In this document: positions 28,555 to 51,900 of the stretch, in pieces
Layout of the letters: each line of letters opens with the position of its first letter
How positions within the stretch are numbered: the first letter of the stretch is position 1
NCBI GenBank assembly: GCA_037951105.1
Contig: JBAMJV010007179.1
Span: 17,130 to 81,129 of the forward strand
Direction of reading: 5' to 3'
From: Echinarachnius parma
Lineage: Eukaryota > Echinodermata > Echinoidea > Clypeasteroida > Echinarachniidae
Length of the DNA: 64,000 nt
Program-made: the position numbers and the translations under genes
Notes under the pieces: model-generated
The model's input: the letters and a program-made list of their open reading frames with translations, nothing else
Databases searched by the model: none
What the model was told of the DNA's origin: nothing

Positions 28555-28611
28555 ACCCCCATCCCCCCCCGTGATCGACGCCCCTGCTAGTAACCTTTAA
28601 TCAACATTCGA

Positions 28612-30718: not shown

Positions 30719-30869
30719 ATGGAGGGTGCGCCAACGAAAGTCGGAAGGAGACACACTGTCATTTTGGGAAGTGGAAACTTTCCTTCCAGGGTGAAAGCGT
30801 CGCTTAATTCGGGGAGACGAAGAACCCTCAACACTGGATCCATTGCCCAAGATCAGGATACGCTATTTA
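30719..30869 (+). CDS. Candidate alternative first exon 1a
   Basis: An ATG opens 50 codons (MEGAPTKVGRRHTVILGSGN..., ending AQDQDTLF) and stops at the strong donor A|GTAAGTAAT in phase 1. Composition rises to balanced GC with no stop, unlike the surrounding AT-rich sequence. It resembles the exon at 34,877: both start MEG, share RR-(H/Y)-(T/S)-V, then (G)RR(K/R)T and (L/A)QDQ(E/D). It would splice in phase to the MYCBPAP exon at 49,726. The assignment to that gene is inference; a separate gene lying within 30-48 kb cannot be excluded. Confidence 0.55.
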
Positions 30870-31339
30870 GTAAGTAATAGTAATATAGTCCTCTAAGTTT
30901 GCACAGGTGCGATTGCTCGGGTCCACCAAAAAGTTTTACTTGTAAAGCGGGCAACACAAATTTAGATACTTGTTTAAATGTTTATCTTTGTTTTAGGTCA
31001 CTCAATTCTGATTTAGGGCCAGCAAAATTTGATAACACTATTTTACTTACCCAACTGGACCACTAAGAAAAAACAAACAATTTCTAGCATTGTGATCCCC
31101 CCCTCCCCGGAGGGGGGATGGGTATTCAAATTATTATTATTTGCAGGGATGTGCTGCAGTCAACTAAACAAAACTAGGGGCTTGGGAACTGAAGTATATA
31201 GAATAAATAAGGGCCTTCGAAACTGATGGGAAATACAGGTCGAGTGGAAAATTTCCCTGAGTTTATTACTTATCCCTACATGTTTGTCTCGAGTTTATCT
31301 GACAAGCACAAGCATTGGAAAGGGCTTCTGAGAAGTACC

Positions 31340-31418
31340 ACCATTAATTAGTCGTTGTAGCTCAATGTTTAGACTACCTGTCTAGCAATTTGGATGTCTT
31401 GATTATGGGTTTGATTCC
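31340..31418 (+). mobile_element. Degenerate tRNA-like (SINE head) sequence
   Basis: GTTGTAGCTCAATGTTTAGA resembles a tRNA A box and GGGTTTGATTCCTTTT a B box, about 50 bases apart, as in the RNA polymerase III promoter of tRNA-derived SINEs. It does not fold into a good cloverleaf, so it is not called as a tRNA gene. Confidence 0.4.
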
Positions 31419-32375
31419 TTTTGAATATAATGTTTTATTCCAAGGCTACACATGGCCTACCATAAGTCGTACTTGGAAATTAATTTCAACTAAAAATCTT
31501 TGTAAAATACCCCCATGTCATCAGGAAGATATGCATATATCATGGCTCCACACTTACTTTTTTGTCAGTGGCCCAGTTGGGCCAGTGAAATATGGCCTGA
31601 AAATTCATGAGAAAACTTTAAAATATCACTCTTTCCTATTTAAACCTGTGATTATAAATGAAGCATGACATGGAAGAAAACAAGTTTTTTTCTAATTTTG
31701 TCAATGTCGGGTTGAAAATGTGCTTGCCCGATCAGGCCACCAAAATATGACTTTTATACATTTTTGCTGGCCAAAAGTGCAATTTCACTGGCCCCGGTCC
31801 AGCGGGCCAATGCGAGTGTCAAGCCCTGCATATATGTTTAGGAACTGTAGTGAAAAGTTGTTGTGTCATCTACTGAAGACAGCACAAAAAAATAGATCTC
31901 TTTCATTTTGTCCCAACTATAAGTTGGATTGATTGGGTCTAAAAATTCAGCTTGTACTCGTAATCTATGATATATTTACAAAAGAAGAAGAAACACTCAA
32001 AAGAGTAATTAATGATTGATAGATGGAGAAATGAATCAAATTAAACGTGATAAAAGACATGGATAGATATAGAACTGATTGGTCACTTTGTACAGGTGAA
32101 TAAAAGACCAAAGAGAGAACAAAGAAGAGCATTAAAGCATGATGAAACTTTGTAAAAAAAACCTTGACATTGTTTATGAATATTTTGTACAAAACTCAAT
32201 CGAAGGGGAGACATATTGAGAACATTGAAAATTTGAATTGTTTTCTTATTTAAAACATACATGTGAACTTGTCCACAGATTTGCCAGAGTGTATTGCCAT
32301 TTTAAGTCACCCATAGAAATAAGTGGCTATCTTCAAAAAGCATACATTCAGACATTATTCCTCCTGTTCATTCTC

Positions 32376-33698
32376 TTAAACCCCTTTTTAATTGAGGAAA
32401 ATAGTCGCGGTAACGTCCGGACGTTGTCAGGAAGACATTCTACCGCGTTTGTATTAAAAAGGTCCAATCGCGGTAACGTCCTGACAACAGCGCGGTAGGA
32501 TTCAACCTAGTCGGGCTAGGGTAATAGCGAGGTAACGTCAGGATGTTGTCAGGATGTTAAGCTGATAAACATTGTATTAAAAAGCGCGCAGAACGTTACC
32601 CGGGTAGATGACGTCATGGCCGTAAAAAATGTAAACATTGCAGCGATCGCGTTTTGGATCGGGAACATGTGGTACTCTTGTAAACAAGGTTGCCAATTTA
32701 AACTGCTGTAAGTTCACACACAAACACTATTCCACATACTCCTAATTTTAGACTTAAATTTGCCCAAATAATACAAGTTATAATACTATGAATATAACAA
32801 TTGGAAGTTTAAAGGGTACCACCACCCCAAAATAATAATCTTTTTATAGAAAGGTAACATCTTTAGTATTCCATTCCTTCAATAAGTTCACAAAAATATG
32901 TTTTAAGAAAGAAAAAAAATGGAAAACGCATCACCATTCTCAGCCATGCGGTCATGCGGTCTGAATGCGCAGACTATTATGCGAGCAGATCCAGCGGCGC
33001 TCTGTGCAGAGCGAACGAATCATCCGGGATTCTATTGACGTACGCGTGAATTGCATTGGCGCACTCGCAAATGCCTGGCCTGTGTGGAACCACGAGATAG
33101 CCGTGGTTCCGTAAGTGGTGGAAATTAATTGCTTTGTTTATTAATTACACAACCCTTTGCAAAATGTTGGGTATCTATTTGATATCACAAAACGGTACCA
33201 AAACATATAATAATGTGTTGTCCTTTGCCTGGTGGTCCCCTTTAACAAATCTAAAATTTGATAAGTACAACAGCTCACTCCAGGGTACATAGATCTACGT
33301 GTGCGCATTATTCATCGCTGATCATAAAATTATCTTCAGCTCATGCAATATCCCAACACGTGTATCAGCGAGATTTAACTAGAATTATTTGTTCCTGAAT
33401 TCTACTCTACCGTGCGCTCCCGATCCGATTGCCTGTTGTATACCCGATATGAATTGACCGTCAAAATGTCCCGCGCTAACGTATACCAGCGCGCGCCGAT
33501 TAGCAGCCGGTCGCACGATGAGAGAGGTGCGGTTGCTATAGTAACCTACCCGGGTGACTCGGAGAAAAACTTTTGATTAAAAACCTGCACAACCTCTCGC
33601 TGCGTGTTTTACGACCTGACCTCCTACTGTTTTTATCGAAATCTCACTCGGGTAAAAGCGAGGTAGAAAACACGTTCTCCAATTAAAAAGGGGTTTTA
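32376..33698. mobile_element. TIR element with TTA duplication
   Basis: The element is 32379-33695 (1317 bp) with ends AACCCCTTTTTAATTG and the exact inverse CAATTAAAAAGGGGTT. It is flanked by TTA on both sides. The subterminal parts are GC-rich with repeated CGCGGTAACGTCC-like words at 32,406, 32,466 and 32,528. A TTA 3-bp target fits PIF/Harbinger. Internally a segment (ACCACCCCAAAATAATAATC) resembles the ACAGTTTTGGTC family. No transposase. Confidence 0.75.
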
Positions 33699-34477
33699 TA
33701 ATGCAAACCACTGTTTGCCCAGGTTTTATTGCCCATCAAAGTGATCCATTAACTTTATAATACTTTTGCAAAAGTGATACTTGAGACCTCAATCATAAAT
33801 CAATATCATAGTATGATTCTTTTGAATGATATCTGATATTTGCATAGAAAAGGAATGTTTACTTAGAAGCTAAAGCAAAAAGGAAAAATCGATGTCAGAT
33901 TTTATCCCTGATTGTTTGTGCGAAGTACTAGAATTCCGATACTGTGAACGATAAAAGTATCCAAATTCTGATCATTTTGACTAAAATTTAAAAAGTGTTC
34001 CGAAATGCTTTTCAATTAAATCTTAATTTTAAATACATGTATCTCCATAACCCGAGACATTTGACTAATCAGAACCCATTTAATTATTATGTTACTATTA
34101 GCCCAACAAAAAGGTACAAGAGAAGTGTGAAAGCTCCAAGTTATTTGGTTGAATTTGACAAAGTTAATGGGTCACTTTAATGTTTGATTCCCTTCTGAAT
34201 TAAAAACAAAATCAAGAAGTCAGTCTGGAGAATGAGATGAAACCAAAGACTAAGAGTATGTGCCTTGCAGATTAACTTCTCTCCTTTGTACTTTCATTCA
34301 GAGTGCTGGTCTTACATTCAATGCATTAGACTTGCAACAGAAAAGTCAACATCTAACTTCTATTAGCGAGCAAACGTTCTGAAATTTCTGAATTCCTGTC
34401 AATAAACGGAAAGTTCTGAGTGCGCTCGCCTCCACCCTTTCTCTTTGGTACATGTATCTACGTGAATAAAACCAAGA

Positions 34478-34762
34478 ATTTTTGCCACAAGATGAATTCA
34501 AAGTAAAGAGTAACAGAAGTGAGATTTAAGTAGAGATTTTTAGCCAAATTTGGATTCAAGTGGATAATTTTGGTGAGAGATTTTATTCAGGTAGGGAATT
34601 TTCACCACAAGTTGAATGCAGGAGGATCATTTCTTTTTGCCAGAAGTAGAATTCAAGATGATACTTTAGCCACAAGTTGATTTCAAGTAGAGGAATTTAG
34701 GCAAGAAGTGTATATTCATGCAGACAACTCTAGTCACAAGTTGAATTCAAGTGGGATATAGG
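34478..34762. repeat. Degenerate ~48-bp tandem repeat upstream of candidate exon 1b
   Basis: CCACAAGATGAATTCAAAGT, CACAAGTTGAATGCAGGAGG, CCACAAGTTGATTTCAAGTA and CACAAGTTGAATTCAAGTGG recur with a period near 48-50 bases, about six copies with heavy drift. The array ends about 115 bases before the ATG at 34,877. Confidence 0.65.
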
Positions 34763-34876
34763 GTACAATATTGAAATCTGGCGTAGTGTTTAATCCATAC
34801 TCCATAAAAATAAGGGAAATATATTGAACTGTTACTGGGAGGAGAACGATATACTTGTGTGATTTTTTGGGGGAAA

Positions 34877-35018
34877 ATGGAAGGCTCTCCACGAAGTTCT
34901 CGCAGATACTCTGTTGCATTCAACACGATACCTAAGGCAAAATCAGCTGGGACGCCAAATGGTAGGAGAAAGACTTTCTTTTCTACTGTGATGTTGCAAG
35001 ACCAAGAAATGTTACTAA
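34877..35018 (+). CDS. Candidate alternative first exon 1b
   Basis: An ATG opens 47 codons (MEGSPRSSRRYSVAFNTIPK..., then GRRKTFFST and LQDQEMLL) up to donor A|GTAAGTGAA in phase 1. It is clearly related to the exon at 30,719 but much diverged, so the pair is an old duplication kept open. RRYS fits the RRxS pattern of basophilic kinases; that is only a motif match. It is spliceable in phase to 49,726. Confidence 0.55.
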
Positions 35019-36599
35019 GTAAGTGAAACTTTGAAAGTTACAAATAATTACTTATGAATCGTGAAAATTGTACAAATTGAGATGTAGTTGACATAAATTC
35101 TTGGTATTGTGAAAGTTTTTGTACAATCAGGTAAGACTCAGAGTGAGCTGTAATGCTGCAAGACTCAAGACCAAGAAATGTTGGAAAAACGTTTTGAGTT
35201 TACAAGTTAGTGCTTCATGGTGGAAATTATGTGAGAATCGTTGGGGAATTTGAAAGCAATAAATAGTAGATGGTTATCAGAATTACTAGTATATTAAATG
35301 TGCTATAGCAAGAAGGTCTACTACTACCAAAAAAGTAAAACAATACAAAGTAGCAGAAATAACCTTTAAATATGGACAAAATACAAACAAAGATTAATTT
35401 TTTTTCTTCTCTTTTACAGCTATATTTTGCAAGACTTGGCAATTTTTGCATCAGACCTATTTTTTTTCTTTCAAATTTAATACTTGAACTGTTCAAAGCA
35501 AAATTGCAAATACCATTTTACACTTAGCATATTGTATTGTTCCCAAGGAGACAGTGAATGCATGAATGCATGCATTTGCCACAATAGCACCAGTCAAAAA
35601 CAATTCCACATCACTCATTACAGTTGGCTTTTCATAAGTTCAAAATCGATTTTTGTAGTGATGCATTCATAATATATTATGTGCAATAATGAAATAATCT
35701 ATTTGCTTCCCCCATCATTGCACGGGTCTGCACACTCAAGGTCTTTTTGGAATTATAATGGGTCTGATATTGATCTTGTCAATTGGTCTGGACATTGTTG
35801 TTAATTACTGATATGCGATGTCAAGTGGCCTCAAGTGATAATTTTTACAACCATTAATCATGTTTTTGGAAGATAGCACAGTACCTTTCTTCAATAATGT
35901 CCATCCTAGCCCAGTTATTAAAGCGCAAATGTATATATTACCAAGAGAATTATCACTAGTTGGTTATTGGTTTAGTCGCTCAGTTTCTTTGTTGTGTGTT
36001 TACAGAAAACAGTTTTCAAACTTGGACTTTGCTGTGTTATACCGTGGTCAATTCGGTCATTTGCTAGGTTAATGAGTCTTGTGACTTCTTGACCAAACAT
36101 CATTTTTAATTTTTTGGATAAGAGAAAATCAATTTTGGTTCTCATAAAGTTTGCAGTTTTGTTGATAGCAACTAGGCATGATACTTTATTGGAGCAGTTC
36201 TTTTGATACCTTGGAAATATTTATAGCATTTTACCTCCAATCCTTTTAGAGTAGCAGTTCATTTTTTGGATCATTATATTTCTAGCATAAAATGTATAGT
36301 TATTGGCACAATCAATGCTGCCGTTCTGTGATTAAAATCTAGAAGTTTCATTTTCTCACGACTCGCTCGAGAGATCACTTGCTGATAATTTTATAGGCTG
36401 AACAAAATGATACATCAATTAATTTGCTCTTTGGGTTTCAGTACCTGTACTGAATGGACTGAAAGATATCAGTTTGTGATATTTAGGTTATCCAAACCTC
36501 TCAGAGATTAAGAGTTGACTCTGTATAATCTAGCCGTATAGCAGATTTTCATGGAATCCTACAAGCTCTTGGAGTAATTTTTTTGAGTGGAATCTACCT

Positions 36600-36920
36600 C
36601 AAAGGTTTATTGATATCGTTGTGCCAGCAAACTTATTGTTCTGTGAGTTGCAAATTTGAAGGAATCATACAAATTGATGGAGTAACATTTATACATATTG
36701 ATTGAACAGGGTTCTAGAAACCACCTTGTTCTGCGCATTGCAAATTTGATGGAATCGTTCAACATGTCACGGAGTAAAATTTGTGTAGAATCGACCTCTT
36801 AGCGTATACAAATCTTAATCTAGCCCTATAGTAAATTTGAAGGAATATCCTACCTCTTAGCATACATTGATTGAAATTTTTGCCAGCAACGGCATTGTTC
36901 TGTTGAGTTGCAAACTCATA
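36600..36920. repeat. Degenerate repeats upstream of candidate exon 1c
   Basis: TTGTTCTGTGAGTTGCAAAT (36,636), TTGTTCTGCGCATTGCAAAT (36,727) and TTGTTCTGTTGAGTTGCAAA (36,894) each precede related sequence (TTGAAGGAATC, GGAGTAA). The last copy runs straight into the ATG at 36,926, so the first exon's leader lies in the repeat. Confidence 0.6.
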
Positions 36921-36925
36921 ATACA

Positions 36926-37124
36926 ATGAGGGATAATTCACCCAACAAACTGTCCTCCGGGGACAATTCCAATCGCGCTGCGGAACCCACGTCGCCAAGA
37001 ATGTCCGCAACAAGAAGGCGAGGCCAGTCCTTCAACAAACCGCCATCGGCCAAATCTAAATCACGACTTGAAAGGCGTCCTCACACTGTGTCCGCTAGGA
37101 TCAGAAATAGCTCTGGCAGATCAG
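36926..37124 (+). CDS. Candidate alternative first exon 1c
   Basis: An ATG opens 66 codons (MRDNSPNKLSSGDNSNRAAE..., then ATRRRGQSFNKPPSAKSKSR and RRPHTVSARIRNSSGRS) to donor G|GTGAGATTC in phase 1. It is Ser/Arg/Pro-rich and GC-rich, with no stop. It shares RR-x-H-T-V with exon 1a. It joins in phase to 49,726. It is predicted to be disordered; no domain was recognised. Confidence 0.55.
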
Positions 37125-37384
37125 GTGAGATTCTGTGAAATGCGTTGACTATAGTCAGTGTAAGAAATAACAAATATTTCTTTCTTCTGTTTTGTTGTTG
37201 TTGAGGAGTCCTATGCATAACATCAAACCTGACTGTATAGCACTAATCGTTTCCCTTTTATTCAAGGGCTATACCAGCCCTAGTACCCTCTTAGGTTTGC
37301 ATTTTGATATGGTCTTGTGTTATTTCAAACTTTCTGGTGCTGTTTCCTTACATTTTGATTGTGGACCTCAAGACCTGATAGGAG

Positions 37385-38393
37385 TAGGTGATTAAGGCTG
37401 AGTCGGTTCGGTCGATCACACCGGTTACCGACCGTTTCAATCGGGACCCGGTTTCGTTATATCGGTAACGGTGCCCCGAAAAAAAAAAGAAATAAAAAAA
37501 AAAAAATGTTAAAAAAGAAATTAAGATTATCACTTAATGTAGCGGAATTCAAGTAAAAACGGGGCAATTGTTATCATTTACTTTAAAGAGTGGTTATTTT
37601 CGAGAAATTCTTGGTTCGTTACTTCGTTTGACAGTCAGAAATTGAACAGGAAGCGCAAAATTGCTAGTCATTTGAACGATATTATTGGCGGATGTGCACA
37701 CAAAGTTAGTCCGATACTCCAGGGGAGTTGTCTGATGGATCTTCGTATGATCCAGCTGATGAGCCAGTGCATTCAAAAGTGGCTCAAAATACGTATTTTG
37801 GTCATTTGCAACATTTTAAAATGTTTTGATATTCTACTTACAGGATTTCATGGCGTTAGCTGAACAGAAACAAAAATGAGCCCCAAAACAATGAAAACAA
37901 TTACGCAAAATATCGATAAAAAACGGCTACATGTATAACGTATGGCGGATGAATTAACATAGCTCCGTCGCGGAAGGATCTCGCGTAAGAAAAAAAAGAC
38001 CCGTAACCTGCACGCAAAGTATACGAGCGATATGCATGAAACAGCGGCTTGAAAACTTGCTGCTAGCTAGCTACAACCGATCGATTTCTAGGTCCAATTT
38101 ACTTCGGAAAAAATACTTTTCTTGCAAAACTGAGTTAATTCTGGATAGTCTGTAACTATTTTCCCGTAAAGATTGATATGTAAAGTCATAAAAGCCTCAG
38201 TATGTTATTTGCATATAAAAAGAGCAATATAAGCCCCAAACAGTGCATTTTTGCCGATGCTTGCACGATTGCGTGATTTTACCCATCCGAGTTTCGACGG
38301 TGAAAATTTATCGGGATACCGGTTCCCGACCGGTAAAAGTTTATCGGGACCCGGTTCCGAATATATCCGACATGACTCAGGCTTATAGGTGAT
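37385..38393 (-). mobile_element. Non-autonomous element with 8-bp duplication TAGGTGAT (copy B)
   Basis: The element is 37393-38385 (993 bp), flanked by identical TAGGTGAT. It begins TAAGGCTGAGTCGGTTCGGT and ends CATGACTCAGGCTTA. It is the inverse of copy A at 15,394-16,711, sharing its ends and the block GAACGATATTATTGGCGGAT, but lacking one arm of copy A's internal foldback. The 60-aa open frame shared by both copies matches no family I know. Confidence 0.85.
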
Positions 38394-38786
38394 TAAACAT
38401 TGCTCAGATTAGAAGAGGAAAGATGATGATTAAAACTATTCATGAAAGACAACCAATATTGTTCTTTTATCTTTAGTTTGCTTATTTTGAAGCTCTAGAA
38501 GGGAGTAAACATACTTGAGACATACTTGTGTAATTGTTCAGTTCTCTAGAAGTAGTTTCCTTACTGTTTACATTTTGATTGTGGATCTCAAGACATTAGT
38601 GGAGTTCTTAGTGATGATTTTAGTTCTCAAATATTAATGTGATGTATTTGCTTTTATTTCTGTATGTTCTGGAATTGAAGGCAGATCATATAATTGTTTA
38701 TTGCTAACTAGGATTGGCTAAGTACACCTACGGCTAAACCAGGTAACCACAGTTTGGAACCAAATGCAATGTCATGAATATGAACC

Positions 38787-38936
38787 CAGGGCCCGTTTCA
38801 TAAACCTTTTCAAATTATTCTAATACTCCAATTATTGTAATGACCATGGCAACAACTATAATGCACCAAGCTGAGTGGTTGTTGGCAGAGTAGTTACAAT
38901 GATTGGAATTTATTACGAAAATGATAATTAAATTCC
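38787..38936. mobile_element. MITE, GGGCCCGTTTCATAAAAC family, copy 2
   Basis: The left end is GGGCCCGTTTCATAAACC. The interior GACCATGGCAACAACTATAA is the inverse of the GTTGCCATGGTAG part of copy 3. The right end is degenerate. Confidence 0.7.
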
Positions 38937-39142
38937 TTGTCTCCCATCTGGTTTCCTGGGGGAAAAAACATATTACAACCTTGCTCAAAACTCTATTCCC
39001 GGTAATGTTGGTGGTCCCAGCTTTTTAAATTCTTTTGTTTTTTAACCCTCATATAATAAGATACTTGGTATAAAAACTAAAAAGGTTATTTTCATGGTCG
39101 CTAGGTCTTCGTTATAATGAGGCCCTATTAAACTGAATATGT

Positions 39143-39643
39143 CCCAGCGTGTTCACACTCAAACATTTTCATCCCTTAATCATGACTAAAGAATCATGAC
39201 TAACGATACGACGTATCGTTAGTCATGATTAAACCAAACTAACTCTTACGTTCACACACAAAGCCAATATTCCACAACAGCTGGCTTCCAGGTGCACCGA
39301 ACATCGTATAAGTGTGCAGTTCGCTACTGCGCAGTGTGTTGTCCTGTTCGCGCGAACGTTCACGTTAAGCCACGCCCATTAGTTACGAGTCGTATAGCTA
39401 ATCATGATTAAAGCGAGCGACCGTCGTTCACACACGAACAGAGCGTGATTCTATAGTCAGCTCTCGTACGAAACGACGATAAAACCTGTGTTTCGTTAGT
39501 CATGACTAACGATACGTCGTTTCGTTAATCAGCGTTCAGACACACAAATTTCATCGTATAGCTAATCAGCAGCTGATTCTATAGTCAGCTGCTGATTCTT
39601 TAGTCATGATTAAGGGATGAAATTTTTGTGTGTGAACACGGGG
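39143..39643. mobile_element. TIR element with iterated ATCATGACTAA words
   Basis: The left end CCCAGCGTGTTCACACTC, then TTTCATCCCTTAATCATGAC, is mirrored on the right by GTCATGATTAAGGGATGAAA, then GTGTGTGAACACGGGG. Palindromic words of the form TTAGTCATGACTAA and TATCGTTAGTC recur at least eight times near both ends. No coding sequence; target duplication not certain. Confidence 0.7.
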
Positions 39644-40875
39644 TTAGTGCCTATTTTGGTTAGGGTCCTGTCCAGTTTGTGTTTCCCTTTAGGCTAAGCA
39701 TGCCCATATAGCATGCCCATTGTATTGAACCTCGATAGACATTGTATTTTCTGGTATATGCCCTAATTGAAATATTAAAAATTACTCTTTTGAAATTGAT
39801 GGACATTTTACCCCCTGTAAAGGGAACCATTTGTTGTTCCCTGAAATTATATGGATATGCTTTAAAAGCTAAAATATGAAGTATTAATTGGTACATCATT
39901 TTTCTTCATATAAATTATACCATAACCAGAACACAATTACCCCCCCCCCCCCCCCCTCTTTTTAATTTTATTTCAAGCTTTAAAAAATAATCACTAAAGT
40001 GTGACTATTGACAAGTGTTTTTGTTAATCTTTGAATACAAATCTGTGTATGGTATCGATCGGCTTTAGCAGCCTATAAAAATGAATTTGTTGTACTCTTT
40101 TATAGTGACACCCTCCCCTTTCATAAATCATCGTTCAACAGACTGCTCCAGGATAAAAGAAATATGGTGATGATAGGTCATTACTTCTTTGTGATCCATT
40201 TATCGCATTTAGCATCTGCGTCAATAAGAGTGTCAATACCTGTGTTACCATAGCAACGGTCACTAGACTGTCATCTGTCGCCTGCCCTCTATCTATCTCA
40301 TTTTCTTTCGTTGAATGGTTTTCAAATATTAATGATGAAACTTGATGCGCCTTTTTTTTTTTGCCACCCTTCTATAGAAACTTCCCCCCAGTGGCAAGCT
40401 GGTTGTCTCTTTTTGTCCATGTACAAGGTCATACATAGTGTATACACCCATCTTTCATTTGCCAAACTTGCAGCCTGTTTGGAGGGAATTACTGTGGATT
40501 TATGGGATTATTTTGTCAATTGTAGACCAAGCTGATGGTAGACCACACATTTGCAAGAGGAATAATTACAGTTTTACTTCGATGATCAGAATTTTCACTG
40601 TGATCTACAATCATCAGATACTGATCTGATCTGATATCTGATTTGCTAAAAATCTGATACTGAAATGACACAGATTATTGACTTGTTTGCCCCCAGCGCA
40701 ATATTTGCAAAAAGATTGGACACTCAAGGATTATTTACTTCAGGAAAGCTTTTCATCATCGCTAATCATAATTTTCTTAAAGCGTTACTAAAAATCTGAT
40801 AATTAGAATACTCATTAATTTGGAGAAAGCTTTTAATCATTGATGATCTATAATATTTGCTAAAAGTTGGTTACA

Positions 40876-40971
40876 ATGAGTAGAGTCGGAAGGGCAGTGT
40901 TATTCATGGTTTAGGAGGACGTAAGCTGTCGGTCAAACCTGACGATTCAAGTTCAAGACATGGCTCTAGCT
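40876..40971 (+). pseudogene. Possible alternative first exon 1d with a frame break
   Basis: ATG opens MSRVGR and, after an apparent one-base loss near 40,895, the reading continues SVIHGLGGRKLSVKPDDSSS, then RHGSS, to donor T|GTAAGT. The pattern VGR-(x)-S-V-I parallels VGRRHTVI of exon 1a. With the missing base restored in count only, the exit phase would be 1. Without it the ATG frame meets TAG after 12 codons. The similarity is short and could be chance. Confidence 0.3.
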
Positions 40972-41473
40972 GTAAGTTTATTGAATTTTCAAATTATTTA
41001 TTTAGGCTATCCTAGCATGATCAATCGATTAACAAAATAGCTAATATCTGTATTAGTTTTGTCAAGTTGCATTTATCTCAGAAATTTCATATTATAGTGA
41101 ATAAAGTACAGAATGTTAAATGTTAAGGCATATTAACCAGCAAAACTGGTTTTGCATTAAGTTTATTTGTTTTGTTTTATTAGTTACAGTACAACAAATA
41201 TGAAGTGTAAATGACTTAAGTGAAATTCAATTTCCATGGTCATAAGAATCCCAAAGCTTCAACAAAATCTTGTTTATGAAAATGGAAACACAATGCAGCC
41301 ATAAAGTTACTTTTGATATATACACAAACAAAGGGGAGTAAGGAGAAGGAAAATGAAAAAGAAGAGGAAATACAATTAGGAGAAAGATAACACATGAAGA
41401 TGAAGCAGCTGACAAAGAAGGAAATATTAAACCATTCAGGACTGGTCCGGCAAATACTCGGGCTTGGGTCACT

Positions 41474-41616
41474 GGGCCCCGTTTCATAAAACCTTTGCAA
41501 TTGTTGTAAGTGTCCAGTTATTGTAACTAGTTGGTTAACAGCCAATCAGCATTGAGCATTGCAGCTGTTGCCATGGTAGTTACAACAATTGCAAACGTTT
41601 TATGAAAAGGGAGCCG
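41474..41616. mobile_element. MITE, GGGCCCGTTTCATAAAAC family, copy 3
   Basis: The left end GGGCCCCGTTTCATAAAACC, then TTTGCAATTGTTGTAA, is mirrored by TTACAACAATTGCAAACGTT, then TTATGAAAAGGG. It is the best-preserved copy of the three. Confidence 0.8.
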
Positions 41617-43437
41617 AACGGGTTAAAAGGCGATTATGAAAAGTATATAGATAAGTAGAAAACAAGTTTATTGGGAGGGGGGGGGCACTACTTTTCAAGC
41701 TTGCCTGCATCAAAGTAGCACTCTAAAAAAAAATTTGCATTGAATTCTATGCAAATTTAAGGGGGTTTGGGGCATTTGCGGGGGCTAAATCGCCCAAAAC
41801 CCATGTTTTGTTTTTTTTATTGAAGAGAAGGCATAACAATAAGAAGAAAAACAAATTTATGATGGAGTAGAAAAAAGAGAAGTGGAGAAGATGATTAAAT
41901 TGCTTCTAAAAGAAAAAAGGAGTAGATGATAATAAAACTATCCCAAAAGACAATACAAATTGATCTGCTTCTATCCATCTTTAGTTTGTGTAGGTGAAGC
42001 TCTACGTAGCAACTATAGAATATTTTGAAGCGCTTGAAGAGAGTAAACATACTTGAGATGGTAGTGGGCCGGGGGTACATGAAGATTCTGTCAACAAATT
42101 AAATAATGACATCATGTTTCTCTGTTTTTCTCTCTTTCAACTAAATCTTTGCCGCAAACCAAATGTCCAAGTGTGGCTTCAAATTATTTTTTGGTACGAT
42201 ATATACCTTGTCACTCCTTGACGTGCTAATCATTGGTTTAAAAAAGACAAAGAAAATGTAGAAAACAACCAAAAAGAAGGATAAGTTATTCAATAAAAAT
42301 TCCACCTTTGACAATAGCTGTGCACATTTATGGTTTTCTAATCTTATTGTATTTGATTTTGTTCTACATGTACTTCAGTTATTGATTTTCCAAACCTACA
42401 TAATTAATATGTTTAGTTAAGATGGACTGCTTAGGGACCAGAATGCACAGGCAAGAGAGGTTGGGGAGAGAGAGCGAGATAGAAAAATAGAAGAGAAAGA
42501 GAGAGAGGAAAGGAAATATATGAAGGTAAAGTTTCTAGGTATATGAAACACTTGTATTTCATAGGAAGTGAAAGGATGCATGATTTGTTTGATTTTAGTT
42601 TTGCCACAACCATTCTGAACATTTTGTTTAACAGTAATCTTCTGCATCGTCTGTTCCAAAGGAACTACTAAAGAAAGAAAATATTGTTGGATTATAAAAT
42701 GGACTAGCATATTCGGCTACGGATGCTACTTTCAAGTACATGTGTTATAAATTATATTTTCTTATAATTGATGATGTTTGATTAATGTTCTGTGTTCATG
42801 GTTTACCAAATTTGTGTGGATCACTGATGGCTGAATTGAGAAATGTGCATTTCAGCAAACCTGTGCAGTTGGGTAAGCATGTCAAAGAGTACTTACAACT
42901 TACTATTCTCACTATAACTGCCCTGAATATAAAATTGGCAAAATCATAATATCACTCACTGGCAGAATTTGAGCATCTTGTCTTCTTCATTTTATTTGTA
43001 GACTGCTGAACAGAAGTCAGTTCACTTAAACTTCTTTCCAGTCAGGGATATGTTTGTTACCATTTTATGCAGATTCTCAAAACTTGATTCCTTAATCAGA
43101 TAAAGGTACATGTCAAATGTGAAAACCATATATAATGTCTGACGTACTCCCCAGCAGTCACCATAGTTTGAACTGCCATATTTGAACAAGTTCCTGTTTT
43201 ATTTGTAGATTGAAGAGCAGAAGTCAGTTATTTCCAAATGGCAGGCACAGTAATTGAAGTAAATTTACTCTTAGCAAACCCGTATAAAAACTTGCAAACA
43301 AATGAAAACTGGCCTTTATTGTATTTGGCTGTTCAATATTTGCTTGAGAGTTCTTGGTCTAGTGACAAAATTACAGAGCAGTGTTCTAAAAAGAGAATGA
43401 TCTCTTTGGTATCTAAGGACACATTTGTTGTTTTCAT

Positions 43438-43528
43438 GGGCGTCGATCTCTCATTGATACCCATTCATCGGGGCGGGATGATCTATTCATTCATCCCCCC
43501 TGATGAATAGGTATTACGTAAGTATCGA
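43438..43528. mobile_element. 90-bp palindromic MITE, GGGCGTCGAT ends
   Basis: CATGGGCGTCGATC at the left and GTATCGACGCCCATG at the right, with a hairpin interior (CATTCATCGGGGCGGGATGA against CATCCCCCCTGATGAATAG). It is related by its end motif to the element at 61,723. Flanks are similar but not identical (GTTGTTTT and TTGTTCTT). Confidence 0.6.
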
Positions 43529-45347
43529 CGCCCATGTTGTTCTTTCATTATAATTGTTTATTTCAATCAAGGAAATGAAACCTGATATTCCAAAATATTA
43601 CAATTATTAACTTTGAAAATAAACAATTTGTTAACAAAATACACTCTTGACATATTATTGTATTTTTTTGCTAAATATATATTTTTTATGAACAATTAAG
43701 AAGAGAAGAAATATATTCTCCTTGTCTCCTGTCAAACTTGAAAACTACTCTAAAAAGTGTGTAAATTAAACAAGTTGTATTTTTACCGCCTCCCTTTTGA
43801 GAAATAAAGTACTGTGGAGTACACTAGGGTGACTCAATATTTGCTCAATTGACAATTTCTCTGAGTGTTTATATCGTAAATACTGCTGAAAACTGCACAA
43901 TCTACTGTTAATTGCCAATGTAATAAAATGAGAGTGAGTAAGAAGCCTAGCTTTCAATCCTAGCAGAATCTTTGTCAGGGCAGACATGTATTTGAGTGAA
44001 AAGTTATGGTTACATTAGACTTAGTGTTACAGTTTTGGTTAGGGTTAGAAAATCTGCTTTAAAATTGGTTTGTGATAAATTGATGGTGAAGCAATAGTCG
44101 CCTCAGAAGCAAGAAATCGCGGAACCGGTTTTATAAAGGCTCAGCAGATCAAAGCAGAGTCAATTATTGATAGATCATAATGATAAAGAAGAGAATGGAT
44201 ACACACACACAAATCAATAAATCTAATCAGTTGATTCAAGTGATGTAGACCGATAATCAGATAAGATCAGTCTGAGGGAGCATTAATCTTACTTACATAG
44301 GGCAGGGGGGGGGGGGAATAGCCTGAAACATGTTTTGGAATGTTTTTTTTTATTTATGAACAACAGTTCTAGAACTAATTGTGCATGCCAAATAGAAAAG
44401 ATTAATTGAAGCATTGCATATAGTTTTAAGCAAGATACATGTATGTGAATACTCATTTAATATACTACACATAAGTGTTTTTTATGACAATCAATTATCC
44501 GGCAATACAAATCCATACCATAATCAAGAATTGTAACATTTCATCTTTTAAGAGATAACATCAAATCTTACCTGCAAACATTTAATATATTGTCTTACCT
44601 TGTGGGTGATGAGAACCCTTTTCCCCGATACAGTCTGGTAAGAACAAATAATACATGTTGTGCTTGTAGCATGGTGAACAGATATAATCTGTGTTTTTGA
44701 ATTTAAAACAAAATATAAATTTGTTCTGTTGGAAGAAATATATGTGGCCATGAAAGAAGAGAACATGGTAGGATTAGTAACACAACAGAAGTGTACTGTA
44801 TAACTGTTATGCTTTAAATATATAACAGATATAACAATAAAAATAATTTACTTTATATTCCTGTACATATGGCCTTGAGTGGTTAAAATTAATTAGGTTT
44901 TTGAAAAACAATACAGTGTTTACAACTGTTTTTGTTTTAGACGTGAAATAAATGTGACCATGACTTTAATAGTTCATTGCCAATATTATATTTTTAACCA
45001 AATCATTTGTCGGCAGAGGAAAACAAATTTGATTCGGCCATGAGAGATTAGAAATCCATTTAGATTATTAATTGAAATGATTATGAATTATTAAAATTTC
45101 ATTTTACGTCCCAATTAAAATGGCGATAAATTACTGACACGAATTGTAAAGCTAAATTTAGGGAGTGAAGTTGAAAAATATATATGTATGTGTTGTGTGT
45201 ATGCAGTAGATGTGCATATAATATATATTTATTGAATTTCTCTATTGCATGTAATTTAGTTCAGTTGGTATTGAATTTCTTTGGAAATGTATGCTTTTGA
45301 TGGTAGCTGGTGATTGATTGGTTATCTGATGTACTTTTGTATCAAGC

Positions 45348-45384
45348 ATGAAGTCAAGGAAGTGGAAAGTTATTGCAGCAGCAA
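45348..45384 (+). CDS. Candidate alternative first exon 1e (12 codons)
   Basis: ATG-AAG-TCA-AGG... encodes MKSRKWKVIAAA and meets a consensus donor A|GTGAGT in phase 1. Very short, so weak on its own. It is kept because the phase matches the other candidates and the exon at 49,726. Confidence 0.3.
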
Positions 45385-45744
45385 GTGAGTTAGCTATTTC
45401 ATTTTTTATTGAAAATAAGATACAAGAATTGTTTTCTTTTTGTGTTTTTGAAGTTATTCATCCGTTTGTTTATCCAACCCGTTTTCGTTCTCCTTTTTTT
45501 TTCTTCAATTTGTGTAACTCACTTTTTGTAATGTCTGGTTTTGTGTCATGAAATGATGTGGCATGAATGACATTTATTTTTTGCCCTAGGTATGAAATGA
45601 ATGATGTTTGCATTGAGTTTTTTTCTTCTTGTTTTCAAATACCGGAAAGAAAAAGAAGCTCTATATTGTTTATTAGAGCTCAGAAGTTCTTATGATTCTT
45701 AAAAGCTCTTTAAAGGTGTGATAAATCTTGAACTTACCTTCCTA

Positions 45745-46240
45745 TACTGTATACGCCAATATTTTCGCGAATGAGAGGGTAAAGGACATTTTCGCACATT
45801 GTTGATTTCGCGATCGGCAAGTCACGCCGCTGGGAAAACAGTTCACTCAAAAGTAGTGACAAAATGCAGCACATTTATGACAATAAATCATCATATAATA
45901 TACAGCAAATTCGTAAATCAATTACAGTTTTATCATTTCTGACATGATTTTTATGGAAATATGGTAACATACTGTTCAGATTTACCTCGATAACAAAATT
46001 TCCGACGTATCTATATTGAGCTTTGACAGCTGCTTTCTTTTTATGCGGTAGCTACCACTACTAGACCACTACTTGATGTTTGCCGGGGGACTGGCCGACC
46101 AATTGTATGCTCGCAAATGCCTGCTTTAAGATTTTACAAATGACTGGCAATATGTTGGCGTGTTGTTATTACGCGTCTCTCTACTGATACGCGAAATTCG
46201 CGAAAATAAAAGCCTCGCGAAATTAACAGCTTATACAGTA
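45745..46240. mobile_element. MITE with TA duplication, CTGTATA ends
   Basis: The element is 45747-46238, flanked by TA. The left end is CTGTATACGCCAATATTTTC, then GCGAA; the right end inverts to CTGTATAAGCTGTTAATTTC, then GCGA. AATTTCGCGA-type words recur inside both ends. It is consistent with a Tc1/mariner-type MITE. Confidence 0.65.
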
Positions 46241-46781
46241 TTAGAAATTGTCACTGCCTTTTTTCCTTTTAAACCCTACAAATCCCTTGAAAGTTGAAAT
46301 GTAATGACGGTGAGATCAACCAGTGACTGAACTACTCTTGTTTGCTTCACTCATAAAAAAACAACTGAACATGTACTACTTATCCCTATAGAGTACCAAA
46401 GTGTGATGCCAGAGCTATGCATTGCCAAAGGTATTGGTTCTACACAATGTCAGGCAAGCCAGACATTTCTGACCTAGCAGTTAAACTGTTAAGAAGGCAA
46501 TCATGCAGCATCAACCCAATACCAAAAGCTGAATAATAGGACAAGTTGTTAAGAACCTTTACCATGCTTTAACAAAAGAATGTGACGTCGGGTACTTCGG
46601 TACTAGGTCTATAGAGCTCTACAATGCGTTTAAATAGCTCTTGATGAGTTGCTTTTTTATTTCCAATATTTTTATGTCATACATCATAGAAAATCTAGTT
46701 ACTATAAACTCTAGTTACATGTAAATCTAGCTGGTTTCATAATTCCAAATATAAATGAAAATGGAGTTAAATTGTTTCTAG

Positions 46782-47133
46782 TAATAATAATAATATCCAA
46801 TTTTTATATAGCGCTTATCACGATTGATAATCATCTCTAAGCGCTTTACAATTTTATTATTACCCCGGTCATAGGATACGATGCGAACCAGCACACATTG
46901 TGTGCACCATCTCCACTCCCTGGGGAGTATTCCTTCCAAGCGCTCAGTGGGCTCAAGAAGATCGTTCACATAAAGGCTTTCACCTCCTACCGGTCCCCAT
47001 TTATACACCTGGGTAGAGAGCAGCAATAGTGGATAAATTGTCTTGCTGAAGGACAAACGCGTTGGGCAGGGTTCGAACTCGGGATCTCATGATCGGAAAG
47101 CGCGCGCTCTACCAATCTTGCCACACCACATCC
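46782..47133 (-). mobile_element. tRNA-derived SINE, full length
   Basis: On the minus strand it reads, 5' to 3': a tRNA-like head (GTGGCAAGATTGGTAGAGCG, then GAGTTCGAACCCTGCCCA, the A and B boxes of an RNA polymerase III promoter); a ~250-bp body (TCCTTCAGCAAGACAATTTA, then GAAGGAATACTCCCCAGGGA); and the tail AAGCGCTATATAAAAATTGG with (ATT)n. The 92-aa frame across it is not a gene. Its near twin is at 51.2 kb, and degenerate copies are at 49.3 and 57.2 kb. Confidence 0.85.
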
Positions 47134-47368
47134 ATGGATATTGCCAAGTGTCATAACTCATACAACTCTGAGTTAAATCCCTTACTCATCATCACCTATT
47201 ATGAGTTTGCCACCTCCATTGTTCCTTTTAATTCCTAACAACCACTTGAAACATTACGAGGGTAAGATGAGCTGGTGTCCAAATTGTTCTTGTTTACCTT
47301 CCTCCTTTATGAATAAAAGAGAGAAAAGAGAGAATGCTATAGCCTGATAGGCATAGTGATAAGGCACC

Positions 47369-47645
47369 TACCCCCTCCGTAACATTTGTTCTTGCATTCA
47401 AGATGCAACATTTGCTTTTATCTATGGAAAGGATACTGTACTGTACATTGTTTACTCTATAACCACTCTCTTAGAAAGAAAGACATAACATTGTATAGTA
47501 ATATCACCTACCCCGTCTGTAAGATTTGTTCTTGTATTCACGATGTAACACTCATTCTGACAAGAACCAGTTAATGGGATACTGGACCCTGTTTACTCTG
47601 GTCTGTGAACACATCTTAGAAACAAAAGACATACAAAGCTTGGAT
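47369..47645. repeat. 140-bp direct duplication
   Basis: CTACCCCCTCCGTAACATTT at 47,369 and CTACCCCGTCTGTAAGATTT at 47,509 begin two diverged copies, with shared GTTCTTG(C/T)ATTCA and CATTGTTTACTCT / CCTGTTTACTCT. No coding content. Confidence 0.65.
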
Positions 47646-48797
47646 GACAAGTTTTGCTTCATCATGCATATATATGCTATGAAAGGTCCAGATGCAGTTT
47701 TAGCCTGAGACTCGAGTTCTGTTTGTGTCTTCTACTAAAATTTCAAGGTTTCTGGTCTTTAAAGCCAGAGCATAGTATCTTGCACGAAGAGTATTACTTA
47801 CCACTTTATTTAAGGTCTCTCATCTTGCTTAAAGTTGTGATTTTAGATGCTTATTTCGATAGCAACGTGACACTTCAGACTGCGTGATATACCACTCCGT
47901 TGGCCGTTCCATTTGATAGCCCTTTCATATGGACCTTTGGAACCCTCATGTTTTAGTGACCCTCTGACCAACTGTTCCATGGACACACCATCCGCATTCA
48001 AATATTTGACCAGTTTTATGTGTTTGTATACCTACATGTGTACCAAATCCTGACAACAAGATAAGAACTATGCTTTACATCAGGATTAAAGCTGGAAAGA
48101 TATATGCGTAACCATGAGAGAAGTTAATTACCAGTTAGTCATTTTGGTTCCATCTTCTTGATTGAAAACTAATTGGTTCCTGACTCTTTGTTACTATCCA
48201 GTGTAAATTGAAGTCACTATAAAGAAACAAGCTGAGGTTGTTCTCCTGTGTTCAGTTGGGAATATACTCTTGTTCATCACACTCTAATAATACGCCATTT
48301 GGAAGGAAATACTGGAGTTTTAACACTTTGATTTTCATATTAACTACATGCTGTTTGCCAGAGTTGCAATATTTCATTCATGGCTGAAGGATTCAATTCA
48401 TTCATTGAATTATTTATGTCTATTCTTTGAATGAATATCTTGGACAGGATGCGAAACATGCTCTGAATTTATAACATCAATATTTGTAAAAGAGAGAATT
48501 ATAAATGCTGAAGCTTCTTCAACACCTGCACTTGCATGCAATATATTGAATGTATAATTGCTATTCCTAAGGAGAGTTTTTGCTATATACATACTAGCAG
48601 AGCGACAAATCTTGTGGTATTATAGAACATCAGTTGAATTTCATATTGCTGATGCATACAGTGTATGTTAACACGTGTATCTTGGCCCACAACAACATTG
48701 AACTAGTATGCAATCAACAAGCTATCAACTATTGAATTATTGATCCTGACCTTACAGTAAAAACATAATACTTAGCATCCCAACAAAAGCTTCTAAA

Positions 48798-48957
48798 ATG
48801 TCAGAGAAGAGCCGATCAGAGTCAAGGACAGATCGTTCGGTGCGGCGCCAGAAATCACCTGTTCGCCGCAGCTCATCACGATCCTCATCCATCAACAGCA
48901 TCGCATCCAGCAACACCGGTGTCAGTGGCCCCACCACCAAGAAAAATCGCAGCATCG
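48798..48957 (+). CDS. MYCBPAP: MYCBPAP first exon, proximal (1f)
   Basis: It encodes MSEKSRSESRTDRSVRRQKS, then a Ser/Arg-rich stretch ending TKKNRSI. The donor G|GTTTTA is weak, but the phase-1 exit matches the next exon at 49,726. A disordered N-terminus is expected. Confidence 0.6.
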
Positions 48958-51900
48958 GTTTTAATTTAACCACACTACAGTTCCTGGGATCACGTCAGTA
49001 TTCTGGGATCGGAAGAATGTGTACCATGAATAATAAATGCCAGGAAATATGATAGAACATTTACTCTTAAACTGGAAAAATTGATTATTCTTGTATTTCA
49101 AAAATATTTGATGATGCATTGGTGCTTTGAATAGTTGATACCTGATTTGCACAGCTGCCAAGTCTCCCTGATTCTACAGGAGGCTCCCTGAAAATGTACA
49201 GATCTTTCCAAATCCTAATTGACACAGACAATTTATGTGAAAAACTTCCTGGCTAAGAGAATTATCTTTCCCCATTGTGGTGTATGGATTTCATAATCAT
49301 ATCCCTGCACTGCTATGTGAAACCTCCCTGATTTTTCAATTTCAATATTCATCTCTAAGCGCTTTATATTTTTACCCCAGTTAATTGGACACACATTTGC
49401 AATCAATGTGATGTGCACTTTCTGCTTACTTTGGATCAATGCATTCTGGCAGACATGAGGTGCATTTAATTAAACGGTATACCAGTACAATTGCATACAT
49501 GTACATGTTCCACTCCTACTCCTCATTTGTACACCTTGGTAGAGAGAAGCATTAGTGGATAAATTGTCTTGCTGAAGAACAAAAACGCACAAACAATGCA
49601 CTGGTTTGAAACTCTGGATCTCACTGATTGATTGGAGAGCGGGAGCTCTTAATTGCCACGCTACGTCCATTAGACATATATGGCAGTTCTGTTAACATGT
49701 CTTCTTTCTTCTTTACTCTCAACAGATAAGCTGAGGAAGAAGCGTGATGGCACCCCTGAGAAGCCTGTCAGCCCCAACAACTCCCAGAGCCTGATCGAGG
49801 AAGAGGTGGTCCCTCCTAGCAAGCAGGTCATCAATGGAGATGACATCCAGGCAATGGCCATTGACCTCCAGGAGCTCGCAAAGGTCAGTTTCTGGCGGTG
49901 TCTCGGTTATAAATCGTTTTTGCACTCATTCTGGGCCCAAGGCCCTTAAGTATTTAGTGGGGTAGATGATGTTTTGTCAGGAAAGGGAGAATTTGAAATA
50001 AAGAATAGGTTGTTCCCCCAGCAAGCAGGTCATCAATGGAGTCGACATCCAGGCAATGGCCATCGACCTGCAGGAGCTCGCAAAGGTCAGTTTCTGGCTA
50101 AAGTGTCTCGGTTATAAATAGTTTTTGGACTCTCTCATTCTAGGCCCATGTCCCTTAAGCATTAAGTGGGTAGATGATGTTTTGTCAGGAAAGGGAGAAT
50201 TTGAAATAAAGAATAGGTTGTTCCCCCAGCAAGCAGGTCATCAATGGAGACGACATCCAGGCAATGGCCATTGACCTGCAGGAGCTCGCAAAGGTCGGTC
50301 AAGAATAGTTTCTGTGGATTCAAAGAATATGAGGAACATTGATGTATTTTCAGTAAAAAGATTGAGGAGAAAAAGTGAATATAGATAGAGGTTGTTTCTC
50401 CCAGCAAGCAGGTCCTCAACGGAGAGGACATCCAATCACTGGCCATTGGTAAAATGTTATTAGGGAATTTAAGTAAATGCATCAGGATTTTTTGTAATTC
50501 CCCATCTAGATGCGAACATCAGATGAAACATCAGTCAGTGTTGGACAAACACTAGACTAAAACTCAATCCCAACCAGTCCTAAAGTTTATATGGCTATTG
50601 AAATATATTAAGAGAATTGAAAATAATGTGGATTTTCTTTGTTCCCCATCTAGTTGCGAGCTCCAAAGCCTCCCCAGTCCCCCAAGAGTCGGACGACAGC
50701 CAAGCTGGTGACAGTGAGGAAGATGAAACCACAGTCAGAGCTGGACAAGCCCAAGACCAAGCCCATTCTGATCGCCAGGCCAGCTCCACCCAGCGCACCT
50801 CTCATGAAGGAGGACTACACTGGTATGATAGATCAATTTTTAGACATTTTAGATACAGTCAAACTTGTATATAAAGATTATCCAAGGGAGACACAAAGAG
50901 TATCCTTTTTGATCAGGTGGTCTTTACACACAGGTTCATTTGCATGTAAATTGTTTATACACAGTTTATATTTGTAGTCAGTTGGTCACCTAGAGCAGGT
51001 TTGACTGTACAATGATTATAAATTTGTAAAATGATTTTGAGGCTTATGAAATACTGACAGTCTTCTTTCACTTGAATTGAAATAACTAATAAATAATGCT
51101 GAAGATGAATCTGTGAGACCTATACTTGATGTTTAAATTATGTTCAATATTTATTCCTAAAATGATGCCAAACACTATCATTTTCACATACTGCTGCTTA
51201 TAAATGCATGATTCCCATAATAATATCTATTATTTATATAGCGCCTATCACGATTGATAATCATCTCTAAGCGCTTTACAATTTTTATTATTACCCCGGT
51301 CATAGGATACAATGCAAACCAGCACACATTGTGTGCACCATCTCCACTCCCTGGGGAGTATTCCTTCCAAGCGCTCAGTGGGCTCAAGAAGATCGTTCAC
51401 ATAAAGGCTTTCACCTCCTACCGGTACCCATTTATACACCTGGGTAGAGAGCAGCAATAGTGGATAAATTGTCTTGCTGAAAGACAAACGCAGTGGGCAG
51501 GGTTCGAACTATGTTTTTGAGACCACTGGAGGCTGCCATGGATGTTTTTTCTATGGTTCTGCATGTCATCAGAGCATGCAATTACAATAATGCGTTACGT
51601 AATAATGCGTACCCGCAGTTACTGGACCTGCTATGTTTTAAAAAGACTTTATGGATTTATTTCTGACATTAATAATACTAATAAATTGCTTTTTAGAAGT
51701 GCATAAGACATATATGATTTTAAGTGCTGTAAAAATGAATATATAAGAAGAATAACAACATTATGCATTGCCTGTTGTAACTATTGTCCTTGTTGTTGCT
51801 TCAGGTGCTGCGGGACCACGCTTTGATTCCACGGGGAACATCATGCCGCACAGCATTCTGGGATCAGTGGATGCATTCAAGATGGAAGCTGTACAGAGGG

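Follow-up and report, generated by a model that had tools for sequence, protein, structure and literature searches.

Putative variable first exons on a constant MYCBPAP core in the echinoid Echinarachnius parma

Does the MYCBPAP gene of the echinoid Echinarachnius parma begin in one place or in several? The question is raised by a 64,000-nucleotide stretch of its genome (contig JBAMJV010007179.1, positions 17,130 to 81,129; hereafter the window, with coordinates counted from its first letter), in which an earlier reading of the letters alone—the sequence-only reading—had proposed an array of phase-matched candidate first exons, with duplicated alternative promoters, ahead of this gene. From the locus and its homologs, we consider it very probable that MYCBPAP is here a multiple-variable-first-exon gene, with variable N-termini set on a constant core. 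Short exons, each with its own ATG, would lie ahead of a shared exon 2, spread over about 18 kb in the window and about 28 kb on the other haplotype, where the array includes an ancestral first exon. Every variable exon would end in a phase-1 donor, with the junction codon made of one variable base and the AT of exon 2, and only the basic, Ser-rich N-terminus would vary on a core that stays constant. The variable exons would act as transcription starts with separate promoters and in different cell types, and one of them, at 48,798, may be spliced in after a different first exon.

What identifies the gene, and where else does it occur? We identify the plus-strand gene whose shared exons run from 49,726 on as MYCBPAP by PF14646 matches in four exons, two of them above cutoff (E = 3e-17 and 3e-8) and two under it. 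Among the hits listed, its closest relatives are the MYCBPAP proteins of Lytechinus variegatus, Strongylocentrotus purpuratus, and Diadema antillarum (73 to 76% identity); PDB chain 9ijj_v matches residues 48 to 657 of the S. purpuratus protein. In the assembly searched (1.2 billion bases, in which the window is C7170:17130-81129), S. purpuratus MYCBPAP gave 36 matches at E ≤ 0.01, on contigs C7170 and C4176 only, which we read as two haplotypes. C4176 can be aligned to window positions 28,587 to 62,823, with gaps, in pieces of 83 to 97% identity (counting those longer than 300 bases). The constant core exons, placed by PF14646 and a tblastn exon map, span 50,654 to 62,159 on the plus strand, with the last exons beyond the mapped part.

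The common exon 2 (49,726 to 49,883, plus strand, beginning KLRKKRDGTPEK) is entered in phase 1 and left in phase 0, and is 70% identical to its counterpart in S. purpuratus and 76% to that in Diadema. It opens at 49,726 with two codon-completing bases, so that phase 1 is indeed what it requires of any exon joined to it, as had been proposed. Homologous proteins point to the same junction. We obtained 169 MYCBPAP hits, of which 120 were listed, and in 74 of those the N-terminus could be delimited by a TPEK-like mark (badly so in P0107 and P0116). Of 74 proteins, 69 have one of four residues just before the exon-2 Lys/Arg (D in 35, N in 20, H in 12, and Y in 2; the exceptions are 3 E, 1 G, and 1 Q), against 13.7% for these four among N-terminal residues; the junctions counted were marked by eye in a set slightly unlike the delimited 74, and many of them share ancestry. 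N, D, H, and Y are the residues of xAY codons, as expected if the variable exon gives the first base and exon 2 starts with AT or AC. The models also carry N-termini of the array directly before the exon-2 sequence: the 30,719/34,877 type in S. purpuratus and L. variegatus, the 40,876 plus 48,798 type in Diadema, and, elsewhere, the ancestral type. None was seen with 36,926 or 45,348 joined to the core. The idea that the N-terminal exons are part of a separate gene was dropped, since in homologs they are attached to the MYCBPAP core.

Which of the candidate exons are real? All five ATG segments of the sequence-only reading (30,719, 34,877, 36,926, 45,348, and 48,798) are present, free of stops, and of length 1 mod 3 at the ends proposed for them. 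Two alternative first exons on the plus strand are of one type: 30,719 to 30,869 (MEG...RRHTV...RRRTL...QDQ; phase-1 donor TTA/GTAAGT, the slash here and below marking the exon boundary) and 34,877 to 35,018 (MEG...RRYSV...RRKTF...QDQ; phase-1 donor TAA/GTAAGT). In tblastn searches, the former matches the MYCBPAP N-terminus of S. purpuratus (E = 7e-11, 51% identity) and the latter that of L. variegatus (E = 1e-6); compared with the collected MYCBPAP N-termini, both reach p = 0.002, the floor of 500 composition-preserving shuffles. Between haplotypes neither has changed (0 of 151 and 0 of 142 bases), with 400-base flanks differing by 2.3 and 4.6% around 30,719 and by 3.5 and 1.0% around 34,877. 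Their mutual similarity (shuffle p = 0.001) and these matches lead us to regard the two as paralogous exons, homologous to the Strongylocentrotus and Lytechinus N-termini; no direct DNA repeat of at least 30 bases was reported between them. As for the motifs proposed as shared, among the other 14 pairs the lowest values, both uncorrected, were p = 0.003 (36,926/34,877) and p = 0.008 (40,884/45,348). What survives of the proposed array is a set of variable phase-1 exons on a constant MYCBPAP core: duplication is clear for 30,719 and 34,877 only, and for the whole array an origin by duplication is at most possible.

A further alternative first exon, of RKGSV/RKLSV type, lies at 40,876 to 40,971 (plus strand, phase-1 donor GTAAGT), where a sixth segment had been described as one base short. 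The window does carry this frame break; C4176 has one more base at this place, which leaves the exon open, with an identical donor. The C4176 peptide resembles the start of Diadema MYCBPAP (p = 0.0005), the in-frame part in the window reaches shuffle p = 0.006 against MYCBPAP N-termini, and the haplotypes differ by three synonymous changes and one nonsynonymous. Because it is intact on the other haplotype and matches the start of the Diadema protein, we take 40,876 to be a true exon. Next to exon 2 lies a Ser/Arg-rich N-terminal exon (48,798 to 48,993, plus strand, phase-1 donor CAC/GTCAGT), which the Diadema N-terminus matches from 48,765 to 48,998 (tblastn, E = 9e-14). It differs by one synonymous change between haplotypes and again reaches the floor of 500 shuffles against MYCBPAP N-termini (p = 0.002). 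The end first proposed for it, 48,957/GTTTTA, is a very poor donor (score −4.1), whereas 48,993/GTCAGT, also in phase 1, scores 4.5. The latter is the likely donor, because the Diadema homology runs past 48,957 and reaches about 48,993. Homology to MYCBPAP N-termini of other echinoids is thereby shown for four exons (30,719, 34,877, 40,876, and 48,798); for 36,926 and 45,348 the searches found no homolog. In the window, the ATG exons at 30,719 and 34,877 can both be joined to exon 2 in phase 1, and so can two that are open on C4176, the one at 40,876 and the ancestral one.

Is the exon at 48,798 a first exon, as originally read, or an internal one? It is a real exon in either case. The Diadema protein resembles 40,876 at its start and 48,798 further on, and when 40,876 is spliced to the in-phase AG at 48,788-48,789, the composite peptide aligns end to end with Diadema (score 174), because of which 48,798 may be internal: an optional exon of symmetric phase 1-1. 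Diadema moreover lacks a Met where the ATG at 48,798 aligns. A narrower form of the array would follow these observations, with the ancestral exon, 30,719/34,877, and 40,876 as first exons, 48,790 to 48,993 as an optional internal exon, and 36,926 and 45,348, for which no homolog was found, as products of chance. We hold this to be quite possible, if short of probable. Against it, the acceptor needed at 48,789 (caacaaaag/CT) is weak and has no pyrimidine tract, a holothurian model (P0009) begins inside the 48,798 segment type, and the segment at 36,926 combines a strong donor with codon use like that of the core.

Is an ancestral first exon still present? On the minus strand of C4176, at 330,867, lies an exon that encodes MSSRLSTKPSKKDRPRSS and then G, followed by a weak phase-1 donor (GTG/GTTCGT, at 330,813, score 3.05). 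It agrees with the N-terminus of the starfish Patiria at 17 of 18 residues (94% identity) and with several cnidarian, molluscan, and lancelet N-termini at 61 to 83%. It lies 6.5 kb distal to the equivalent of 30,719, and 28.1 kb separate it from exon 2; no copy was found on C7170, the window included. Beyond window position ~28,587, the parts of the contigs that were compared (on C4176, 326,520-360,563) have nothing in common but scattered, repeat-like matches, the window running on to a MAT2B-like gene and C4176 to the ancestral MYCBPAP first exon. This break may be either a structural difference between haplotypes or an assembly misjoin.

What, then, of the two remaining segments? Both are unproven as first exons. 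The candidate at 36,926 to 37,124 (plus strand, 66 codons) has a phase-1 donor scoring 11.5 (CAG/GTGAGA) and is open in both haplotypes, which differ by one synonymous and two nonsynonymous changes; against MYCBPAP N-termini it gave shuffle p = 0.65. That at 45,348 to 45,384 (plus strand, 12 codons, phase-1 donor CAA/GTGAGT) shows one synonymous change, and its best N-terminal likeness, to P0016 (Paralvinella), reached only p = 0.066. Neither segment yielded a homolog or a selection signal of its own. Chance would account for both of them well: an ATG, a stop-free run, and a phase-1 GT often coincide, and the array would be a selection effect. ATG segments that reach 12 codons and end at GTRAG are indeed often in phase 1, with 28 of 53 on the plus strand, 13 of 34 on the minus strand, and 8 of 13 between 21.5 and 49.7 kb, which disposes of the 1-in-81 probability once attached to the agreement of five phases. 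When a donor score of 4 or more and a length of 45 codons or more are required, the array stretch retains 9 candidates, 5 of them in phase 1 (P about 0.15 by our own binomial estimate), and the minus strand of the whole window 26, with 7 in phase 1. Agreement in phase does not reach significance by itself. As an account of the entire array, however, chance is very unlikely; the homology of 30,719, 34,877, 40,876, and 48,798 to MYCBPAP N-termini leads us to judge it refuted for four of the six segments, and constraint between the haplotypes also speaks against it. Across all six segments we counted 6 synonymous changes to 3 nonsynonymous, with 24.7% of sites expected to be synonymous (p = 0.009), and without 36,926 the ratio is 5:1 (p = 0.004).

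That the window holds a decaying pseudogene with a functionless array, as the frame shift in 40,876 and six more inside core exons (at ~54,396; 55,870-55,896; 57,051; 58,030; 60,115; and 60,770) might suggest, is scarcely credible, given that the C4176 frame is continuous at all six core places and that the haplotypes differ in exons 2, 3, and 4 by 15 synonymous changes to 1 nonsynonymous (in exon 2, 8 of 8 are synonymous). Because of that continuity, the six core frame shifts fit sequence errors or allele-specific changes.

Do the variable N-termini of MYCBPAP share more than their place? RRx[S/T] followed by a hydrophobic residue is the consensus of protein kinase A (PKA). Taking V, I, L, M, or F as the hydrophobic residue, we found the motif in 21 of 43 nonancestral N-termini, against 0.8 in shuffles, and in none of the 19 ancestral N-termini (0.1 expected). 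In this count P0034, P0035, P0045, and P0073 were left out as near-duplicates; P0023, P0063, P0064, and P0069 are in neither group, being of the ancestral type missed by our first pattern; and P0106, P0107, P0110, and P0116 are outside the set. Two of the six window segments carry four such motifs between them, against 0.17 expected.

Several results weigh against a multiple-first-exon MYCBPAP or leave it without help. The haplotype comparison has only nine changes, just one of the two haplotypes yielded the ancestral exon, and the homologs are database protein models, one representative per 90% cluster. The lack of the PKA-type motif in the 19 ancestral N-termini is what composition gives and is not evidence in itself. 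Likeness of the nonancestral exons to N-termini from outside the echinoids is weak, the best of six values being p = 0.02 for 48,798 (30,719, p = 0.10; 34,877, p = 0.35; 36,926, p = 0.65; 40,876, p = 0.054; 45,348, p = 0.07). A protein search with the peptides of 36,926, 40,876, and 45,348 returned 138 candidates, of which not one reached E ≤ 10, even with the true exon 40,876 in the query; a short-fragment search of 295 candidates gave one match, a 144-residue fragment that fits exon 3 and not the N-terminal exons; and profile hidden Markov models of four N-terminal classes found nothing in the window better than E of about 0.1. Codon use like that of the core (630 in-frame training codons) gives little support, with weak hints at most: among null segments, which overlap one another, as high a value was reached by 283 of 2,887 for 30,719, 403 of 3,409 for 34,877, 34 of 1,143 for 36,926, 3,177 of 9,423 for 40,884, 3,859 of 26,070 for 45,348, and 42 of 1,208 for 48,798. 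X-box (RFX)-like sites, 24 against about 17 expected, were rejected as promoter evidence and lend no support: one site with one mismatch (40,244, GTTACCATAGCAAC; 0.95 expected) and 23 with two (16.1 expected).

How does this architecture compare with known systems? In UGT1, GCNT2, and the protocadherins the variable part is a large domain, whereas in MYCBPAP it would be a tail of 12 to 66 residues, and only two exons are clear duplicates. Like the arrangement proposed here, UGT1, GCNT2, and the clustered protocadherins combine several variable first exons with a shared set of downstream exons (PMC1885805, PMC3325998). The architecture is known, and we found no report of it for MYCBPAP; the titles and abstracts listed for MYCBPAP/FAP147 (25 of the 70 papers that contain the name MYCBPAP) describe no alternative first exons, in a search that lay mostly outside subscription papers. 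A likeness is seen in oyster MYCBPAP, which has an identical or near-identical core behind unrelated N-termini, with a break that fits the phase-1 junction. In Crassostrea virginica, isoforms X1 and X3 are identical at 852 of 852 core residues and begin with unrelated N-termini, and a Crassostrea gigas pair shares 687 of 712 core residues, again with unrelated N-termini. Scallop and mussel pairs diverge at the junction too, their members coming from differing species or sources. The oyster isoforms differ from the echinoid case in being known as database protein models.

What might the variable N-termini do? By PF14646, the echinoid core is orthologous to MYCBPAP/FAP147 of the C2a projection. 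FAP147 is the protein predicted to make up the C2a stalk of Chlamydomonas; in mouse, the N-terminus of MYCBPAP binds CCDC108, and MYCBP is a further C2a component (PMC13345628). In Chlamydomonas the orthologue of MYCBP is a binding partner of AKAP240, which belongs to the central pair (PMC4901443). Compared with branchial cilia, the sperm flagella of Ciona are enriched in PKA (PMC4427456), and in mammals PKA is located on radial spoke 3 (PMC11779644). The N-termini could possibly add or remove predicted PKA-type sites on a C2a protein, by which sperm and other ciliated cells could differ in cyclic AMP (cAMP)-regulated beating, a suggestion we make with less certainty than the architecture itself. 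Going further, MYCBPAP might be an animal-old cell-type switch of the central apparatus, in which the choice of promoter decides whether a cilium's central apparatus responds to cAMP; we regard this as rather unlikely. In this reading the ancestral first exon, found from cnidarians to starfish and still present here, would be without kinase sites, lineage-specific first exons would install PKA sites on the N-terminus of the C2a protein, and this protein would adjoin a partner whose algal orthologue binds an AKAP. The subject bears on the question of how, in one organism and with mostly the same axoneme parts, sperm flagella and cilia come to beat differently. Interchangeable N-termini, several with PKA-type sites and one without, would allow a direct test by exon use in sperm, blastula, and ciliary band.

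Some smaller features lie in and around the gene. The 3' half of exon 2 and its donor are tandemly repeated at 49,818 to 50,296 (208-base unit, 2.3 copies, 92% match), with a further copy of the exon end near 50,400 (50,388 to 50,444). These copies look like partial duplicates; as usable cassettes they were rejected, their phases (by our reading 2 on entry and 0 on exit) not fitting the array. A MYCBPAP intron holds a reverse transcriptase fragment on the minus strand (59,102 to 59,566; RVT_1, E = 3.7e-10). Upstream on the plus strand, at ~14.6 to 20.9 kb, lies the MAT2B-like gene; its exons match the Pfam families Epimerase and RmlD_sub_bind, some of the RmlD matches falling below cutoff. Between its exons, at 20,217 to 20,692, a 111-base unit is tandemly repeated (4.3 copies, 97% match), and one frame is open there over 170 codons. 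Within the first-exon array, a palindromic TCATGACTAACGATACGACGTATCGTTAGTCATGA stretch at 39,194 to 39,606, with a second, diverged copy 306 bases further on, looks like a small inverted-repeat element.

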